From assembly GCA_903822825.1 (NCBI GenBank), contig CAIJQQ010000003.1:1-64000 (forward strand): 64,000 nucleotides of DNA, in the 5' to 3' direction. This stretch comes from an uncultured Burkholderiales bacterium (GTDB taxonomy: Bacteria; Pseudomonadota; Gammaproteobacteria; Burkholderiales; Burkholderiaceae_C). This document shows, in pieces, positions 16,573 to 25,323 of this stretch. Made by a program: the position numbers and the translations under genes. A model generated the notes under the pieces. It was not told the DNA's origin. It saw only the letters and a program-made list of their open reading frames with translations, and ran no database searches. How positions within the stretch are numbered: the first letter of the stretch is position 1; each line of letters opens with the position of its first letter.

Positions 16573-17553
16573 ATGCGCACCAACCCAACTGCCCATCGAT
16601 GGACCCAGGGCCTGCTGGCCAGCTTGCTGCTGGTACTGGGGTCGTCTGCTTTGGCACAAAACTACCCGATTAAAACCATCCGCATGGTGGTCCCTTGGCC
16701 CGCAGGCACGCCGGCCGATGTGGCCGGCCGCATCGTTGCCGAGAAAATGGGCGCAAGCTTGGGTCAACCCATCGTGGTGGACAACAAACCCGGAGCAGCG
16801 GGCACGATCGGCATGGCCGATGCGATAAGGCAACCCGCAGATGGTTACACCTTGTACCTGCTGTCTTCGGCTTCACTGGTGGCACCTTTGCTGTTTCCAA
16901 CGCAGACCATTCCTTTCAAAAACCTGGAAGCCGTCGGGCACATGGCCTGGAGTTACAACGTGCTGGTGACCCCGGTGAGCAGCACACTCAAGGGGCCAGC
17001 CGACATTTTGCAAACGGCCAAGGCCAAGCCCGGCAGTTTGAGTTTTGCATCGGGCGGCAACGGCACCCCAGCCCACTTGGCAGGCGAACTGTTCAAGCAG
17101 CAAACCGGCACCGTCACCACCCATGTGCCCTACAACCAGTTCGGCTTGGCCATTGGCGACCTGATCGCTGACCGCACCAACTTCATGTTTTTGACAGCCT
17201 CAGCTGCGATCGCGCAAATCAACGGCGGCAAACTCAAACCCATGGCCGTCACAGGCGCCAAACGTCTGCCAGCCCTCAAAGACGTGCCCACCATGGCCGA
17301 GCAAGGTTTCGGTGACTTTGTGCTGCGCTCCTTTGACGGCATGATGGTCAAGACTGGCACGCCCAAAGAAGTGATCGAGCGCCTGAACACCGAACTGAAC
17401 AAGGCACTGAACCTGCCCGATGTTCGCGAGCGCCTGGGTGCCCTGGCCCTGGAGCCCGAACCCATGAGCGGCACCCAATTTGACAGCGTCATTGCCGTTG
17501 AAACCGAGAAATGGCTGCGCATCGGCAGAGCTGCGCAAATCAAGGCCGATTGA
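16573..17553 (+). CDS. Bug-family periplasmic solute-binding protein (TTT type)
   Basis: 326 residues. Signal peptide about 1-29 (QGLLASLLLVLGSSALAQNYP). Mature protein is a Bug/TctC-type two-lobed binding protein: YPIKTIRMVVPWPAGTPADVAGRIVAEKMGASLGQPIVVDNKPGAAGTIG is the family opening, and the PxGT/adjacent loop that grips a carboxylate is recognisable. No TctA/TctB lies next to it, so it is an orphan receptor. It directly abuts the GMC oxidoreductase gene (TGA-ATG with no gap), suggesting that the bound solute or its product is the oxidoreductase substrate. Confidence 0.9.
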   Translation: MRTNPTAHRWTQGLLASLLLVLGSSALAQNYPIKTIRMVVPWPAGTPADVAGRIVAEKMGASLGQPIVVDNKPGAAGTIGMADAIRQPADGYTLYLLSSASLVAPLLFPTQTIPFKNLEAVGHMAWSYNVLVTPVSSTLKGPADILQTAKAKPGSLSFASGGNGTPAHLAGELFKQQTGTVTTHVPYNQFGLAIGDLIADRTNFMFLTASAAIAQINGGKLKPMAVTGAKRLPALKDVPTMAEQGFGDFVLRSFDGMMVKTGTPKEVIERLNTELNKALNLPDVRERLGALALEPEPMSGTQFDSVIAVETEKWLRIGRAAQIKAD

Positions 17554-19170
17554 ATGTCTCCCGCCATGACCGAAACCGACATCGTCATTGTCGGGGCAGG
17601 CTCGGCAGGCTGCACCCTCGCCGCCCGTCTGAGTGAAGATCCGAATTTGCAGGTCACGCTGATCGAAGCAGGCACACCGTCCAGCTACCCTTGGCTGAAC
17701 ATCCCGATCGGGTACTTCAAAACCGTGGGCAATCCAGCGCACGATTGGCGATTTGAAACCCAGCCCGAAACAGGCATGGCTGACCGACGTCTGCCTTGGC
17801 CCAGAGGCAAAGGCCTGGGGGGCTCCAGCCTGATCAACGGCATGTTGTATCTGCGAGGTCATGCGCAAGACTATGAGGGCTGGCAGGCGCTGGGCAACCC
17901 TGGCTGGTCTTGGTCCGATGTGCTGCCCTATTTTCAAAGGGCCATGGGTACCCGCCAGACGACAACGGGCGATGACCAGGACGGGCCTTTGTGGGTGTCC
18001 GAATTGCCACGTGATCCACTGTCTGATGCGTTCATCGCAGCGGCTGGCCAATGCGGCATCGCGCCGATCGAAGACTTCAATGGTGGTGACAACACCGGCG
18101 CAGCATATTTTCGAATGAACACGCGCCACGGCCAACGCATGAGCACCGAGCGCGCCTATTTGCGGCGCGCCATGCAACGCCCCAACTTGCAGGTCATCAG
18201 TGGTGCACAGATCACCCGCATCTTGATGCAAGGCCACAGGGCCCATGGCGTGGCATGGGTTCAAAACGGACAAAACCACCAACTCCAAGCCAAGCATGAA
18301 GTGGTGCTGTGTGCAGGGGCCATCCAGTCACCCCAGCTCTTGCAACTGTCGGGCATCGGACCGGCCGAACTGCTGCAGCAGCATCAGATTTCGCCCGCCA
18401 TCGATTTGCCGGGCGTGGGCGAAAACTTGCAAGACCATTTGCAAGTTCGCCCATCTTTTCGCTGCCAAGGCGTGGAAACGCTGAACGATGTGGCCAACAG
18501 CCGGTGGCGCAGCGCACGTGATTTTCTGCGCTACCAACTCACCCGCACTGGACCGCTGGCCACCGGGGTGTACCGAGCGGGAGCTTTTTTGTCGCTGGAC
18601 AATGCTGCACAAACCCATTGGCCCAATGTGCAGATCCATTTCGGCTTGGTGAGTTTTGACCGTCCTCACCAGCCGCCCCACCCTTTTCCAGGCATCACGC
18701 TGTCGGCCTGCATATTGCGTCCTGAAAGTCGTGGGCGCATCCAGATTTGCAGCGCCGACCCCTTGGCGTCCCCCGCCATCCAGGCCAACTACCTGAGTGC
18801 CGAAAGCGACCAGCGGCTGGCTGTGAAGATGGTGCGCAAGATGCGCGAGATCGCCAGCCAGGGGCCTCTGTCTCGCACCATCTTGCAAGAGCATGAACCA
18901 GGCGCGTCATGTCAAAGCGATGCGCAGATCCTGAACTGGGTGCGGCGCCGGGCAGGCAGCATTTTTCACCCTGTGGGCACCTGTGCCATGGGCCCCGCCA
19001 CAGACCCCATGGCTGTGGTCGATGCCCGACTGCGCGTTCACGGTGTGCAAGGCCTCAGAGTGGTAGACGGCTCGGTCATGCCGCGCATCGTGTCGGGTAA
19101 CACCAATGCGCCCATCATCATGGTGGCCGAAAAAGCCGCAGACCTGATCCGTGAGGATTTGCGAGTCTAA
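17554..19170 (+). CDS. GMC-family FAD-dependent oxidoreductase (choline dehydrogenase-like)
   Basis: 538 residues. FAD-binding motif DIVIVGAGSAGCTLAARLSEDPNLQVTLIEAG at the N-terminus, GMC signature GKGLGGSSLINGMLYLRGHAQDYEGW (about 87-115) and second signature VVLCAGAIQSPQLLQLSGIGP (about 250-270). C-terminal domain has the catalytic-region HPVGTCAMG and VSGNTNAPIIMVAEKAADLI. The family oxidises alcohols to aldehydes; the substrate cannot be told from sequence. Start: ATG at 17554 immediately after the Bug stop; an internal ATG at 17566 (MTETDIV) is possible. The stop overlaps the stop of the convergent MarR gene by four bases. Confidence 0.9.
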   Translation: MSPAMTETDIVIVGAGSAGCTLAARLSEDPNLQVTLIEAGTPSSYPWLNIPIGYFKTVGNPAHDWRFETQPETGMADRRLPWPRGKGLGGSSLINGMLYLRGHAQDYEGWQALGNPGWSWSDVLPYFQRAMGTRQTTTGDDQDGPLWVSELPRDPLSDAFIAAAGQCGIAPIEDFNGGDNTGAAYFRMNTRHGQRMSTERAYLRRAMQRPNLQVISGAQITRILMQGHRAHGVAWVQNGQNHQLQAKHEVVLCAGAIQSPQLLQLSGIGPAELLQQHQISPAIDLPGVGENLQDHLQVRPSFRCQGVETLNDVANSRWRSARDFLRYQLTRTGPLATGVYRAGAFLSLDNAAQTHWPNVQIHFGLVSFDRPHQPPHPFPGITLSACILRPESRGRIQICSADPLASPAIQANYLSAESDQRLAVKMVRKMREIASQGPLSRTILQEHEPGASCQSDAQILNWVRRRAGSIFHPVGTCAMGPATDPMAVVDARLRVHGVQGLRVVDGSVMPRIVSGNTNAPIIMVAEKAADLIREDLRV

Positions 19171-19739
19171 ACGCCAGGCAGTGATGCCTTCCAGCGGGCG
19201 CGACTGCCGCCCTGTCTGCGCCCTGTAGCGCCTTCGGGTTTGTGCGTTTGCGCCACCGCCAAGGCCCGCGCCTGCATGGCGTTCAAACTGCGGGCCAGGG
19301 CCTGTCGCGCGTCGGGCTCCAAATCCTGCAAAAGCTCATGGTGTACCTGAACGACACGGGGAAACAGTTGCTCGAACAGTGCCGCGCCAGCCTGCGTGAG
19401 CAAGACACGGGCCCTGCGGCCATCGCCCGGCACGGGTTGTCGCTCGACAAGCCCCTTGCCCATCAGGCCCCGCAAAGTCTTAGAAGCCTGTGAACGGTCC
19501 ACCGTGGTGCGCGCTGCCAGGTCCGAGGGCGACATGGCGTTGAGCTCAGCCAGCATGGCCACAAACTGCCACTCTTCACGGGTGATGCCGTATTCGTTTT
19601 CGCAGATGCGGGTGACCAGCGAACCGCTGATGCCCAGCAACTCCGACAGCCGGAAATTGAGCAGATCGAAAATCGATTTCGGATCTTCAAACTCGGGCAG
19701 TTGGCTTTGCGCGGCCAATGATGCTTTGGGAAAACCCAT
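19167..19739 (-). CDS. MarR-family transcriptional regulator
   Basis: 190 residues from the ATG at 19739 (MGFPKASLAAQSQLPEFED); the track ORF to 20276 reads back through the aminotransferase gene. The winged helix is clear: REEWQFVAMLAELNAMSPSDLAARTTVDRSQASKTLRGLMGKGLVERQPVPGDGRRARVLLTQAG. A basic C-terminal tail (GATGRRQGGSRARWKA) is unusual. It is divergent from the aminotransferase-TTT-amidohydrolase operon and is the obvious candidate regulator, with a dyad in between. Confidence 0.9.
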   Translation of the reverse strand: MGFPKASLAAQSQLPEFEDPKSIFDLLNFRLSELLGISGSLVTRICENEYGITREEWQFVAMLAELNAMSPSDLAARTTVDRSQASKTLRGLMGKGLVERQPVPGDGRRARVLLTQAGAALFEQLFPRVVQVHHELLQDLEPDARQALARSLNAMQARALAVAQTHKPEGATGRRQGGSRARWKASLPGV

Positions 19740-19777
19740 GGTGGATGCGGCCTGTCTACGGGAAAAACCTGAGGATA

Positions 19778-19792
19778 ATGGATTTATTCCAT
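19778..19792. promoter_or_regulatory. Candidate MarR operator
   Basis: ATGGA-TTTAT-TCCAT, 5-bp perfect arms around 5 bases, AT-rich, in the 70-base gap between the MarR start and the aminotransferase start. Short arms keep confidence low. Confidence 0.35.
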
Positions 19793-19808
19793 CACCTGCT
19801 TGCTGCCT

Positions 19809-21206
19809 ATGCTTAAACGCATGAGCACAACGCCCCTCAAGACCTCGGTCAACGACCCCATCGACATCCGCAGCGCCAACGCGCAGCACATGTACCACCC
19901 CATGATCGACCCCAAGGCGTTGCAGGCTTCGCCACCCCTGATCATTGACCGGGGCGAAGGCGTCTATGTTTACGACATCGACGGCAAGCGCTACCTGGAC
20001 ACCGTGGCTTCGCTGTGGAACGTGAACGTCGGGCACAACCGCCCCGAGGTCATCAACGCCATCAAGGCCCAGCTGGACAAGCTGGCTTATTACTCCACCT
20101 TTCAAAACACCTCCAACCCGCCCGCCATCGAACTGTCGGCGCGGCTGATGCGCATGTTTGCCCCCGAAAAAATGAACAAGGTGTTCTTTTCCTCCGGCGG
20201 ATCGGACGCGGTGGAGACGGCGCTCAAGCTGGCGCGCCAATACTGGAAGCTGCAAGGCCAGCACGATCGTCACCAATTCATCTCACTCAAATGGGGCTAC
20301 CACGGCGTGCATTTTGGCGGCGCGTCCATCAACGGCAACCCGATGTTCCGCAGCGCCTACGAACCCCTGCTGGCGGGCTGCCATCTGGCCGAAACACCCT
20401 ACACCTACCGCAACCCCTGGAACGAAACCGACCCGGCCCAACTGGCCCAGCTGTGCCTTGACCAATTGGCCCAGCTGATCGCGCAAATCGGCGCCCAGCA
20501 CATCGCTGCCCTGGTGGCCGAGCCGGTGCAAGGCGCAGGCGGCGTGATCGTGCCGCACCACAGCTACTGGCCGGGCCTGCGTCAACTGCTCGACCAGCAG
20601 GGCATCTTGCTCATCAGCGACGAGATCGTGACCGGCTTTGGCCGCATCGGCGCCATGTGCGGCGCCCGCGCCTGGGGCGTGGCCCCAGACATCATGGCCA
20701 TGGCCAAGGGCATCAATTCGGGCTATGTGCCCTTGGGCGCCACCCTCATCAACGAACGCGTGGCCAGCGCCTGGAACCAGCCCGGCGTGCCCGCTGCACT
20801 GATGCACGGCTACACCTATTCAGGCCATGCGCTGGCCTGCGCTGCGGCCAATGCCAATCTGGACATCGTGGCCAGCGAAGACTTGCCCGGCAACGCCAGC
20901 CGCGTGGGGGCTTACATGCAAGACAAATTGCAAGAGCTGACGCATTACAACCATGTGGGCGAAGTGCGTGGCAAAGGCATGATGGCCGCCGTGGAACTGG
21001 TGACCGACAAAGCCAGCCGGGCCATGCTGGTGCCACCTTCGGCCTACATCCAGACCCTGGTGGGTACAGCCAGAGATGCTGGTGCCATCGTCCGCGTGCA
21101 AGGCAACCGGCTGATCTTGTCGCCCCCTCTGGTCTTCACCCGTGAGAACGTGGACGAAGCGCTCAGGGTTTTACACCTTGCGTTCACAGCGGCCGAAAAA
21201 GTTTAA
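19809..21206 (+). CDS. Class III pyridoxal-phosphate aminotransferase (omega-amino acid/amine type)
   Basis: About 465 residues from ATG 19809 (MLKRMSTT; ATG 19821 also possible). The class III fold is evident: LDTVASLWNVNVGHNRPEV, FFSSGGSDAVETALKLARQYW (cofactor phosphate), WGYHGVHFGG, VAEPVQGAGGVIVPHHSYWPGLRQLLDQQGILLISDEIVTGFGRIG, and PLP lysine in MAMAKGINSGYVPLGA. Family members transfer amino groups from omega-amino acids or diamines such as putrescine or taurine to pyruvate. First gene of a five-gene operon with a TTT importer and an acetylpolyamine-type amidohydrolase, which favours an amine substrate (inference). Confidence 0.9.
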   Translation: MLKRMSTTPLKTSVNDPIDIRSANAQHMYHPMIDPKALQASPPLIIDRGEGVYVYDIDGKRYLDTVASLWNVNVGHNRPEVINAIKAQLDKLAYYSTFQNTSNPPAIELSARLMRMFAPEKMNKVFFSSGGSDAVETALKLARQYWKLQGQHDRHQFISLKWGYHGVHFGGASINGNPMFRSAYEPLLAGCHLAETPYTYRNPWNETDPAQLAQLCLDQLAQLIAQIGAQHIAALVAEPVQGAGGVIVPHHSYWPGLRQLLDQQGILLISDEIVTGFGRIGAMCGARAWGVAPDIMAMAKGINSGYVPLGATLINERVASAWNQPGVPAALMHGYTYSGHALACAAANANLDIVASEDLPGNASRVGAYMQDKLQELTHYNHVGEVRGKGMMAAVELVTDKASRAMLVPPSAYIQTLVGTARDAGAIVRVQGNRLILSPPLVFTRENVDEALRVLHLAFTAAEKV

Positions 21207-21246
21207 TTCCCCCATGCCCACTGCCCTCAACTGACTGGAGACAACC

Positions 21247-22203
21247 ATGCCTCATCGCATCCGCCTCATCGCTTTGGCCGCCCTGGCCGCTGCTGCTGCA
21301 CTGCCCGCCATGGCGCAAGACAAATGGCCCAGCAAGCCCATCGAGATCATTTACCCCTACCCACCAGGCAACGACATGGACGTGGTGACGCGATTGCTGG
21401 CCGAAGGCATGAGCAAGCGGCTGGGCGTGCCGGTGCAAGTGATCAACAAGCCCGGCGGTGGCGGCGTGGTGGGCTTTGCCGAGATGACCCGCGCCAAACC
21501 CGATGGCTACACCATCGGCACCTGGACGCCTGGCCCAGGCATCTCGCAGATCGTGGCGGGCAACACGCCTTACAAAATGAGCGACTACCAGTCGGTAGGC
21601 GGCATGCTGATCAACGACTTTGTGCTGGCTGTGCGTGGCGACATACCGGCCACCAACCTCAAGGAGTTTGCCGCATGGGCCAAGAAAAGCGGCAAGCCCG
21701 TGGTGATTGGCAGCTACGCACCAGCCGCCGTGCCTGCACTGATCGCCGCCAAAATCGCCAAAAAAGACGGATGGGCCTACAAGGTCGTGGCCTTCCCCAA
21801 CCCCAGTGCCAAAGAGTTGGTGGCCGGTGATGCCGACGTGACCACCGCCGGGGCCGAAGGCGCCATGTCTTATGCCAAGGCCGGGCAAATCAAGATCCTG
21901 TCAGCCTGGGGCCCTCAGCGCAACCCGGTGTTCCCGAACGCCGCCACCCCCACCGAAGAAGGCTATGGCGACTTGTACACCTGGGGCGGAATGGCCGCAC
22001 CCGTGGGTGTGCCCAAGGACATCATCAACAAGCTCTCCAGCGTGATGATGGAATCCCTCAATGACAAGGCGGTGCAGGACCAGTTCAAGAAAGCCGGTAT
22101 TCCAGCGTTCCCCATGACCGCTGAGCAGATGGGCAAGCGCGTGACTGAAGACGCCAAATGGATTGGCGAGTTGATGACCGAGTTGGGCATGACCAAGAAG
22201 TGA
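21247..22203 (+). CDS. tctC: TTT transporter periplasmic receptor (TctC/Bug)
   Basis: 318 residues. Signal peptide MPHRIRLIALAALAAAAALPAMAQDKW with cleavage near AMA-QD. Mature protein is of the Bug/TctC family (SKPIEIIYPYPPGNDMDVVTRLLAEGMSKRLGVPVQVINKPGGGGVVGFAEM). It binds the solute in the periplasm for TctBA, which follow at two-base spacings. GGAGACAACC before the ATG is a good ribosome site. It lies 40 bases after the aminotransferase. Confidence 0.93.
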   Translation: MPHRIRLIALAALAAAAALPAMAQDKWPSKPIEIIYPYPPGNDMDVVTRLLAEGMSKRLGVPVQVINKPGGGGVVGFAEMTRAKPDGYTIGTWTPGPGISQIVAGNTPYKMSDYQSVGGMLINDFVLAVRGDIPATNLKEFAAWAKKSGKPVVIGSYAPAAVPALIAAKIAKKDGWAYKVVAFPNPSAKELVAGDADVTTAGAEGAMSYAKAGQIKILSAWGPQRNPVFPNAATPTEEGYGDLYTWGGMAAPVGVPKDIINKLSSVMMESLNDKAVQDQFKKAGIPAFPMTAEQMGKRVTEDAKWIGELMTELGMTKK

Positions 22204-22205
22204 CG

Positions 22206-22694
22206 ATGAAGCCCGAATCAAGCCTTCGCGGTTGGTCCTGGGACCGGGTGTTGTTGCTCGTGCTGGCGTTGCTGGCGGGTGGCCTGGCGCTGGCCAGCCG
22301 CTCACTCATCGTGCCTTACCCCCAAGATGCGGCTTGGTTCGAATCGGCCGCATTTTTTCCCTTGCTGGCCTTGGGGCTGATGGCCCTGGCGGGCGTGGTG
22401 GAGGTCTTCCATCGCCGCAACGCCATCGAGCTCAAAGACTCTGAAGAGCTCGATTCCAGCCAGGCCCGCATGGGTCTGGCCTGGCTCATGCTGGGCCTGT
22501 TTGGCCTTTACATGCTGGCTGTGCCGTGGATGGGCTATCTGAGCAGTACCTTGCTCTTTTTGGTGGCCAGCAGTCGGATGCTGGGCTTTGCCTGGCGCAC
22601 CACCTGGGCGCTGAGCCTGCCCCTGGCGCTGGCCATGTGGTGGGTGTTTTTGAAACTTCTCAAAGTCCACTTCGGACACGGCTGGTTGAACTGA
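22206..22694 (+). CDS. tctB: TTT transporter small membrane subunit (TctB)
   Basis: 162 residues, start at ATG 22206 (MKPESSLRGW); the track start at 22158 is inside tctC. Four hydrophobic segments (VLLLVLALLAGGLALASR, AFFPLLALGLMALAGVV, MGLAWLMLGLFGLYMLAVPW, LSLPLALAMWWVFLKLL) match the four-helix DUF1468/TctB family. It pairs with TctA in the inner membrane and is two bases from its neighbours on both sides. Confidence 0.9.
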   Translation: MKPESSLRGWSWDRVLLLVLALLAGGLALASRSLIVPYPQDAAWFESAAFFPLLALGLMALAGVVEVFHRRNAIELKDSEELDSSQARMGLAWLMLGLFGLYMLAVPWMGYLSSTLLFLVASSRMLGFAWRTTWALSLPLALAMWWVFLKLLKVHFGHGWLN

Positions 22695-22696
22695 GC

Positions 22697-24190
22697 ATGG
22701 AGTTTTTTGAAAGTCTGTCGCAGGGTTTTGCGGCGCTGGCCACGTGGCAAATCGCACTGTCCCTGTTGGTGGGCTCGGCTTTGGGCATTGTGGTGGGCGT
22801 GTTGCCCGGTGTGGGGCCTGGCGTCACGATTGCCGTGCTGCTGCCTTTCACTTACGGCATGGCCCCGCTGGCGGGCATTTCCTTGCTGCTGGGGGTCTAC
22901 TGCGGCGCCTTTTACGGCGGTGCGGTCACGTCCATCCTGATCCGCACGCCGGGCGAAGCCTCGTCCATCATGACCATGTTCGACGGCTACCCGATGGCCC
23001 GAAAGGGTCAGGCGCAAAGGGCCTTGTCGCTGGCCTTCATGTCGGCCTTCATTGGCGGCATCGTGAGCGCATTGCTGCTGGGCCTGGCGGCTCGACCACT
23101 GGCCGGTTTTGCTGCCAAATTCGGCGCACCTGAGAGCGTGATGGCCATTTTGCTGGCCTGCCTGTGTGTGGGCAAAGCCTATCAGCGCCAGTTTGCCTCG
23201 GCCATGATGATGATGTGCTTCGGTTTCTTCCTGGCCACGGTGGGCATCGACCCCAACTCCAACGAGCAACGCTACACCCTGGGCCTGCAGGGCCTGCTCA
23301 GCGGCATCCCGTTGGTGCCCGTGGCGGTGGGCATGTTCGGCATGGCGCAGGCCCTGGTCATGGTCAGCTCTCCCGTGCCCACGTTTGACGCTTCGCTGAT
23401 TGGCCGTGCTGGTGTGTCCTGGCGGGCCTTTCTGGAGCCCTTCAAATACCCCAAAACCCTGGGCAAAGGCCTGTTTCTGGGCTCGGCCATCGGTGTGCTC
23501 CCCGCTGTGGGTGCTGCCCTGTCCACCTCACTGGCTTACTTTTGGGCGCAACGCGGCGCCCAAGACCCCACACCTTTTGGCGAAGGCAACCCCGAAGGCA
23601 TCGTGGCCGCCGAAAGCGCCAACAACTCCAACTCGGGCGGCGCCATGATCACGGTGCTGACGCTGGGCATTCCGGGTGATGCCATCACGGCCATCATCAT
23701 GGGTGTGTTTGTGGTGCACGGCATCGTGCCGGGCCCGTCGCTGTTCATGGACCGTCCTGAAATCATCAACGGGGTGCTGTCGGCCTTGCTGGTCATCAAC
23801 GTGGTCATCCTGGCCCTGCTGGTGGTGTGCGTCAAACCGCTGGCCCGCCTGGCTTATGTGAACCCGCGCATCCTGGGTCTGGCGATTTTGACGCTGTGCT
23901 TTGTGGGGGCCTACTCAGCCGCCAACTCCATGTATTACGTTCTGATTGCCACTGTGTTTGGCGTTTTCGGGCTGGTGTGTGCACGGGCCAACATCCCGAC
24001 CATCCCGCTGATTTTGGGCATGGTCATGGGCGACACGCTGGAGTCGGCCTTGCGCCAAGCACTGGGCCGCAGCGACGGCTCATTGATGCCATTCATTGAA
24101 CGCCCCATCTCCATGAGCATTCTGGCCGTCATGGTTCTGATGCTGGTCTGGCCTTGGCTGCACAAGCTTTTCTTATCACGCAAACCCTGA
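22697..24190 (+). CDS. tctA: TTT transporter large membrane subunit (TctA)
   Basis: 497 residues, start at ATG 22697 (MEFFESLSQGF). TctA hallmarks: GIVVGVLPGVGPGVTIAVLLPFTYGM, GAFYGGAVTSILIRTPGEASSIMTMFDGYPMARKGQA, and in the second half AAESANNSNSGGAMITVLTLGIPGDAITAIIMG, reflecting the internal duplication of the family. About 11-12 membrane segments. It is the sodium- or proton-coupled translocator for the solute delivered by TctC. Confidence 0.95.
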   Translation: MEFFESLSQGFAALATWQIALSLLVGSALGIVVGVLPGVGPGVTIAVLLPFTYGMAPLAGISLLLGVYCGAFYGGAVTSILIRTPGEASSIMTMFDGYPMARKGQAQRALSLAFMSAFIGGIVSALLLGLAARPLAGFAAKFGAPESVMAILLACLCVGKAYQRQFASAMMMMCFGFFLATVGIDPNSNEQRYTLGLQGLLSGIPLVPVAVGMFGMAQALVMVSSPVPTFDASLIGRAGVSWRAFLEPFKYPKTLGKGLFLGSAIGVLPAVGAALSTSLAYFWAQRGAQDPTPFGEGNPEGIVAAESANNSNSGGAMITVLTLGIPGDAITAIIMGVFVVHGIVPGPSLFMDRPEIINGVLSALLVINVVILALLVVCVKPLARLAYVNPRILGLAILTLCFVGAYSAANSMYYVLIATVFGVFGLVCARANIPTIPLILGMVMGDTLESALRQALGRSDGSLMPFIERPISMSILAVMVLMLVWPWLHKLFLSRKP

Positions 24191-24198
24191 AATTTTCC

Positions 24199-25323
24199 AT
24201 GCCCAACACCACCGCCTATGTGACCGACGAGCTGTGCTTTTGGCATGACCCGGGCAACTACGCCCTGATGCTCAAGCCTGGTGGTTTTGTGGAGCCTTAC
24301 AACCGACACATCGAAAACGCCGACCCCAAGCGGCGTCTGCACAACCTGGTCCAGCAATCGGGCCTGGTGCACAGCCTGCATGTGATCCCGGCGCGCGACG
24401 CGCAGGTGCACGAACTCACCCGCCTGCACAGCGCCAGTTACGTGGCCAAGGTCGAGCAAATCGCACTGGCCGGAGGCGGTGACACCGGCATTGGCGCACC
24501 CATCTCGTCCAACGGCTGGGCCGCCGCCCGCCGCTCTGCCGGTTGCGCCCTCACCGCCGTGGACGCCGCCATGCAAGGTCAAGCGCAAATGGCGTATGCC
24601 CTGACCCGCCCGCCCGGCCACCACGCAGAACCCGAACAAGGCATGGGTTTTTGCGTCTTTGCCAATGCCGCTTTGGCTGCAGCCCATGCCATCGAAGTCT
24701 ATGGTTTGCAGCGTGTCGCCATCGTCGACTGGGACGTGCATTTTGGCAACGGCACCCAAAAGTGTTTTGAGCAGCGCAGCGATGTGCTGACGATTTCGGT
24801 GCACCAACAAGCAGGCTATCTGTTCGTCAAGGGCGAGGCCGACGAACTGGGCCAAGGTGCAGGTGCGGGCTACAACATCAACATCCCCCTGCCCCCGGGT
24901 TGCGGCTTCGGGGCTTATCGGGAGTCCTTCGAGAAAGTGATATTGCCCGCACTGGATGCCTACAAACCCCAGCTGATCGTCGTGGCTTGCGGCTACGATG
25001 CCGGGCGCTTTGACCCCCTGGGCCGCATGATGCTCGACGGCGTGGCCTTTCGCTGGATGACCGATGCGGTGCTGGACATGGCCCGCAAGCACGCCCAAGG
25101 CCGCGTGGTCATGACGCACGAAGGCGGTTATTGCCCGGTGTCGGTCCCGTTTTGGGGCATGTCGGTGTTGGAACAGATGACCGGTTTGAAGACAGAAGTG
25201 GTCTGCCCGTTTACCGGACAACACGACCAGATGCCCGCGCAAAAACTGCAAATTGAGCAGGCACGCCTGGTGCAGTCACTGGCCGGGTATTTTGAAGACA
25301 TCCGGCAAAAGCACTGGGCCTGA
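24199..25323 (+). CDS. Class II histone-deacetylase-like amidohydrolase (HDAH/acetylpolyamine amidohydrolase family)
   Basis: 374 residues from ATG 24199 (MPNTTAYVTDELCFWHDPGNY). Zinc-dependent deacetylase fold: RPPGHHAEPEQGMGFCVFANAALA (tandem catalytic His, about 138-143), VDWDVHFGNGTQ (Asp and His zinc ligands, about 175-182), ACGYDAGRFDPLGRMM (third ligand Asp, about 266) and the EGGY near the C-terminus (THEGGYCPV). The overall pattern resembles bacterial HDAH enzymes of Bordetella/Alcaligenes. Usual HHG is HFG here, but the ligand His is kept. Last gene of the aminotransferase-tctCBA operon, eight bases after tctA. Likely substrate is an N-acylated amine (inference). Confidence 0.85.
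   Translation: MPNTTAYVTDELCFWHDPGNYALMLKPGGFVEPYNRHIENADPKRRLHNLVQQSGLVHSLHVIPARDAQVHELTRLHSASYVAKVEQIALAGGGDTGIGAPISSNGWAAARRSAGCALTAVDAAMQGQAQMAYALTRPPGHHAEPEQGMGFCVFANAALAAAHAIEVYGLQRVAIVDWDVHFGNGTQKCFEQRSDVLTISVHQQAGYLFVKGEADELGQGAGAGYNINIPLPPGCGFGAYRESFEKVILPALDAYKPQLIVVACGYDAGRFDPLGRMMLDGVAFRWMTDAVLDMARKHAQGRVVMTHEGGYCPVSVPFWGMSVLEQMTGLKTEVVCPFTGQHDQMPAQKLQIEQARLVQSLAGYFEDIRQKHWA

Follow-up and report, generated by a model that had tools for sequence, protein, structure and literature searches.

An operon in the window (the whole stretch of 64,000 nucleotides analysed here, from an uncultured Burkholderiales bacterium) joins a TTT importer to a class III aminotransferase and an HDAC-like amidohydrolase (HDAH), and we put at about two in three the probability that it serves to break down a small N-acylated amine compound under the control of MarR, acting by import, deacylation, transamination and aldehyde oxidation. 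As we envisage this pathway, the amide would be bound in the periplasm by TctC and carried inward through TctAB. In the cytoplasm the HDAC-like zinc hydrolase would then cleave off a short acyl group (probably an acetyl), and transfer of the resulting primary amine onto a keto acid by the class III transaminase would leave an aldehyde that would be oxidised to the acid by an aldehyde dehydrogenase (encoded within the operon in some relatives, and elsewhere here). The likeliest substrate, we infer, would be an N-acetylated omega-amino acid (of the beta-alanine, GABA, 5-aminovalerate or taurine type) or a small polar N-acyl amine. No described operon of such a kind was found in the open-access literature.

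Table 1 Features of the operon and its surroundings, in positions of the window
Feature	Position	Strand	Basis or remark
Separate TctC without TctA/TctB, paired with GMC gene	16573..17553	+	PF03401
GMC oxidoreductase, adjoining operon	17554..19170	+	
MarR-family regulator	19167..19739	-	PF12802/PF01047; divergent from operon
Inverted repeat TAATGGA-N5-TCCATYA, candidate MarR operator	19776..19794	.	Conserved block between marR and aminotransferase
Class III aminotransferase, PRK07481 subfamily	19821..21206	+	NF005683, PF00202
TctC periplasmic binding protein	21247..22203	+	PF03401, 132 bits
TctC first ligand-pincer loop YPYPPGNDMDVVTR	21352..21393 (aa 36-49)	+	Paralogue and orthologue alignment
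TctC second pincer loop FPN	21793..21801 (aa 183-185)	+	Orthologue and paralogue alignment
TctB small membrane subunit	22206..22694	+	PF07331
TctA large membrane subunit	22697..24190	+	PF01970, 416 bits
HDAC-like amidohydrolase, cluster-1b HdaH relative	24199..25323	+	PF00850

The five genes lie on the forward strand in the order aminotransferase-TctC-TctB-TctA-HDAH, with intergenic gaps of 40, 2, 2 and 8 nt exactly as the first-pass annotation had described them, and the divergent MarR gene likewise starts at 19739, the left coordinate given there; the start codon of the aminotransferase is the ATG at 19821. Aminotran_3, TctC, TctB, TctA, Hist_deacetyl and MarR each score above the Pfam gathering threshold, and membership of the TTT family is indicated by the adjacency of all three subunits. 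Spacing and conservation together suggest that the genes of the operon are co-transcribed. The genome (approximately 2.9 Mb in 66 contigs) is placed with Limnohabitans, and the occurrence of near-identical loci in Limnohabitans isolates and in Limnohabitans/Comamonadaceae MAGs shows that the gene order did not arise through misassembly. The cultured Limnohabitans strains II-D5 and T6-5 are among the carriers of the operon.

The divergent orientation of the MarR gene is kept in most relatives, and the form TAATGGA-N5-TCCATTA of the inverted repeat, a candidate MarR operator, is shared by most of the Limnohabitans-type loci and by L170, a variant with Amidohydro_3 (see below); the copy in the window contains a single mismatch in its arms. 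A consensus promoter scan gave nothing above chance, and there was no convincing terminator. On the other side of the MarR gene (window positions 16573-19170), a second TctC gene abuts a GMC oxidoreductase gene with a gap of 0 nt and is divergent from a LysR gene; this TctC is outside the operon. The TctC-GMC pair adjoins the operon in many Limnohabitans, the GMC gene doing so in 14 Limnohabitans-type loci, and in two further loci (L088 and L090) a GMC enzyme lies directly 3' of HDAH. Within its own genome, however, best-match comparison of the GMC enzyme gave 45% versus 44%, which is too close to settle orthology, and we consequently rejected the GMC, TctC and LysR neighbours as operon members, leaving the GMC oxidoreductase as a possible but unproven partner.

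Conservation of the gene set was assessed in a scan of named genomes, which yielded 32 loci encoding a close HDAH; for GC-rich relatives, genes were called with codon scoring. Limnohabitans-type loci number 25 (L061-L085), and in all 21 of those not cut by contig ends the order aminotransferase-TctC-TctB-TctA-HDAH is intact, at 78-95% identity across free-living freshwater Limnohabitans. The TTT form is also found in three other Burkholderiales lineages (L091, L093 and L094), with the MarR/aminotransferase/TTT block convergent with HDAH in L091, and this recurrence of the same order in 21 Limnohabitans-type loci and in other genera is more than a chance association. Elsewhere the transporter changes: the aminotransferase-HDAH pair is kept in L086 and L089 with the TTT replaced by an ABC system possessing two NMT1-type binding proteins, and L090 carries the MarR, aminotransferase and HDAH genes without a transporter, followed by a GMC oxidoreductase and two sulfatase-family genes. 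HDAH accompanies branched-chain-type (HAAT) ABC genes in L087 and a GMC gene in L088 (with TRAP genes further on), the aminotransferase being absent from the stretch seen in both. HDAH and aminotransferase distances over the 32 loci are correlated at 0.96 in a mirror-tree comparison, a value that partly reflects species relationships. The distribution of the system is patchy, since a close HDAH or a close aminotransferase is encoded in only a handful of 401 genomes sampled across the family, and a plasmid search found no close relative of the window HDAH clade, all matches being below 60% identity.

The best evidence for amide hydrolysis as the step catalysed at the HDAH position comes from a replacement at that position. 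Among 36 congeneric genomes, orthologues of the aminotransferase and of TctC share an identical distribution over 10 genomes, of which 8 also possess HDAH, 2 an Amidohydro_3 protein and none both (in G015, HDAH lies at a contig edge and the operon there cannot be judged). In the two exceptional genomes (G021 and G009, loci L170 and L171) HDAH is absent, and an Amidohydro_3 protein (PF07969) of 555-560 aa follows directly after TctA; it is non-homologous to HDAH, and none of the remaining sampled genomes encodes it. PF07969 counts N-acyl-D-amino-acid deacylases and N-substituted formamide deformylase among its amide hydrolases. Two unrelated hydrolases thus fill one operon position, which points to amide hydrolysis as the step taken there, although PF07969 is a broad family and the swap is seen in two genomes only.

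The aminotransferase scores 664.9 bits against the NCBIfam model PRK07481 (NF005683; cut-off 575), which describes a subfamily labelled 'hypothetical protein' and lacking an assigned function, and its Schiff-base Lys motif is present. An aldehyde dehydrogenase gene lies within the operon in L093 (at its head), L086 and L170, where it follows the Amidohydro_3 gene and encodes a protein 62% identical to the L086 enzyme. For the aldehyde dehydrogenases of L086, L093 and L096 the best models are succinate-semialdehyde dehydrogenase, with scores below the cut-offs. The window operon is without such a gene, the nearest relative elsewhere in the genome being 49% identical to the L170 enzyme. The first-pass proposal of a unit for import, deacylation and transamination therefore gains in weight from the filling of one slot by two amidohydrolases, from the joining of an aldehyde dehydrogenase and from the linkage of transaminase and HDAH across different transporters.

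A second PRK07481 member, 53% identical, is encoded on contig 31 of the same genome (L180, G000:C31:6852-11935), clustered with UPF0261, HAD-protein, aldehyde dehydrogenase and ferredoxin genes, just beyond which apparent P450, glutamine-synthetase-like ligase and amidotransferase genes were read from the sequence; this is possibly a separate amine degradation cluster. An aldehyde dehydrogenase, a PRK07481 transaminase, UPF0261 and a HAD protein form a recurrent cluster in Burkholderiales (L096, L100, L104 and L182), to which L096 and L100 add a second class III transaminase, two SDRs, an amidase and a cluster-1b HDAH, and this context may offer a hint to the function of UPF0261. In another family (f184/g447 genomes; L145, L148 and L151) a parallel HDAH-transaminase association exists, in which a distant HDAH is arranged in operon-like fashion with an aldehyde dehydrogenase, a PRK12403 transaminase, SBP_bac_8 and a cytosine/purine-type permease. 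Peptidase S58 (DmpA-type) genes also lie near or directly beside HDAH in several lineages (L072:10241-11320, L074-L077, L091:10147-11247 and L098).

The closest solved structure to HDAH is that of Pseudomonas aeruginosa HdaH (PA3774, 5g0x; 43-44% identity, TM approximately 0.91), followed by KpHdaH, PrpH and DmhA, and a search of the structure set gave E-values down to 3e-98 for HdaH but only about 1e-38 for APAH. As judged from sequence, HDAH groups with these cluster-1b HdaH enzymes, whose fold, zinc site and EGGY motif it shares, and apart from the cluster 4 acetylpolyamine amidohydrolases. The window clade of 35 sequences is split from all others with a support of 1.0 and a branch length of 0.39. 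Its Zn ligands (D179, H181 and D267), catalytic H141 and H142, and the motif RPPGHH are present in all 35 members, catalytic Y311 in 34 and EGGY in nearly all, whereas PrpH and DmhA have RPAGHH instead. RPPxHH and EGGY are motifs of robust deacetylases, and together with published structure-function work these residues indicate a probable small acyl pocket (PMC11532494). Four residues are diagnostic of the clade, namely F182, L208, R270 and E191, in place of which relatives carry H, P, A/G and Y, respectively, the H being the residue that follows the Zn ligand and the P an otherwise invariant one of the tunnel loop. As a matter of speculation, Arg270, near the zinc site, might interact with a negatively charged end of the substrate.

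The binding protein is also unusual. TctC genes number 61 in this one 2.9 Mb genome (G000), and that of the operon has the lowest PF03401 score (132 bits) among them. In TTT systems, contact with the proximal carboxylate of the ligand is made through two waters held by the backbone of the motif P-F-X-A-G-G-X-X-D (PMC5812351), whereas the operon TctC has P-Y-P-P-G-N-D-M-D, in which P, the first G and D are kept. The motif is described as near-ubiquitous in TctC, not obligatory (PMC5812351), and membership of the family consequently stands despite the mismatch. Asn42 (at the second Gly position) and an acidic residue next to it, at 43, are each found in only 1 of the 61 paralogues, that of the operon, and PPGND-x-D is kept in 27 of 27 TctC orthologues, whose second pincer loop is 2 aa shorter than usual. 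In an AlphaFold model, residues 37-42 connect strand 32-36 to helix 43-59, an arrangement also seen in BugD, and the fold matches 2dvz, 2f5x and 4x9t. Given these non-canonical pincer loops, the carboxylate-gripping site is altered, which would suit a different ligand group while being no proof of one. To that extent the suggestion of an unusual TTT substrate class fits the altered loops, yet TTT proteins binding amino acids and nicotinamide have already been described (PMC5812351), and an N-acyl-omega-amino acid is still a carboxylate. A bolder version, which we regard as tentative and rather doubtful, is that the re-shaped loops allow this TTT to read the amide or amine end of its ligand and not the carboxylate, in an undescribed N-acyl-amine pathway with interchangeable HDAC-fold and Amidohydro_3 enzymes.

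Several alternative hypotheses may explain the same gene set. Import of N-acetylputrescine, N-acetylcadaverine or another acetylpolyamine, with deacetylation and transamination to an aminoaldehyde, suits the gene logic, and in its favour are also the extra acidic residue in the TctC ligand loop and the co-occurrence of a distant HDAH with a class III transaminase, aldehyde dehydrogenase and SBP_bac_8 in L145, L148 and L151. However, HDAH groups with HdaH, and PA3774 itself does not deacetylate acetylputrescine, acetylcadaverine or other acetylpolyamines (PMC4784309). The gatekeeper Glu of HDAC10 (PEG motif) is replaced by Leu274 in DPLGRM in all 35 clade members, and no polyamine-type ABC system was seen with the clade, the genes nearby being TTT, NMT1-type ABC, HAAT or TRAP. 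An N-acetylated polyamine, as put forward in the first-pass annotation, is thus rejected as the leading substrate on HDAH placement, gatekeeper residue and PA3774 biochemistry; we judge this pathway quite unlikely and prefer an N-acetylated omega-amino acid or small polar N-acyl amine as the substrate.

That the substrate is a xenobiotic or secondary-metabolite amide, the amine being detoxified or used, is suggested by the propanil and dimethoate hydrolases of the same fold cluster, 1b (PMC11532494), and by the sulfatase-family, GMC and amidase genes near the operon in relatives. We think this unlikely, given that 78-95% identity across free-living freshwater Limnohabitans suggests a steady natural substrate and that the clade keeps RPPGHH where PrpH and DmhA have RPAGHH. 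The TTT might alternatively import an ordinary carboxylate while the two enzymes act separately and share no more than their regulation, HDAH being, for example, a deacetylase of protein lysines. In favour of this, lysine peptides are deacetylated by cluster-1b HdaH enzymes (PMC11532494), and carboxylates are the ligands of most characterised TTTs (PMC5812351). Yet the replacement of HDAH by a non-homologous metabolic amidohydrolase, the persistence of the transaminase-HDAH pair even without a TTT, and the departure of the TctC pincer loops from the canonical carboxylate type make such an arrangement very improbable.

If the N-acyl amine pathway is correct, two independent downstream enzymes would constrain the chemistry, and thereby the ligand class, of one TctC, a protein that is very numerous in related bacteria and for which few ligands are known. 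The operon would furthermore provide a clade of bacterial HDAC-like enzymes with a role in metabolism, and would name an amide-nitrogen source of freshwater Limnohabitans.

In comparison with known TTTs (TctCBA; BugD, BugE and TphC), the window system has all three subunits and the TctC fold, and differs in the PGND-x-D motif and the shortened FPN loop of its TctC. Ectoine degradation was rejected as its function: the logic is similar, but the deacetylase differs, the ectoine deacetylase DoeB being of the M20 type. The likeness to ectoine catabolism, which employs DoeB, the transaminase DoeD and the dehydrogenase DoeC (PMC5924519), lies in the succession of deacetylation, class III-type transamination and aldehyde oxidation, whereas the deacetylase and transporter of the window operon are different. 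In the dissimilation of N-acetyltaurine by Ruegeria pomeroyi, for which a tpa taurine-pyruvate aminotransferase gene is annotated a few genes away from the naa genes (PMC4334477), binding-protein-dependent import, an amine-freeing amidohydrolase and an aminotransferase are likewise combined (as compared by annotation), with an ABC transporter and a LysR regulator there in contrast to the TTT, MarR regulator and HDAC-fold enzyme of the window.
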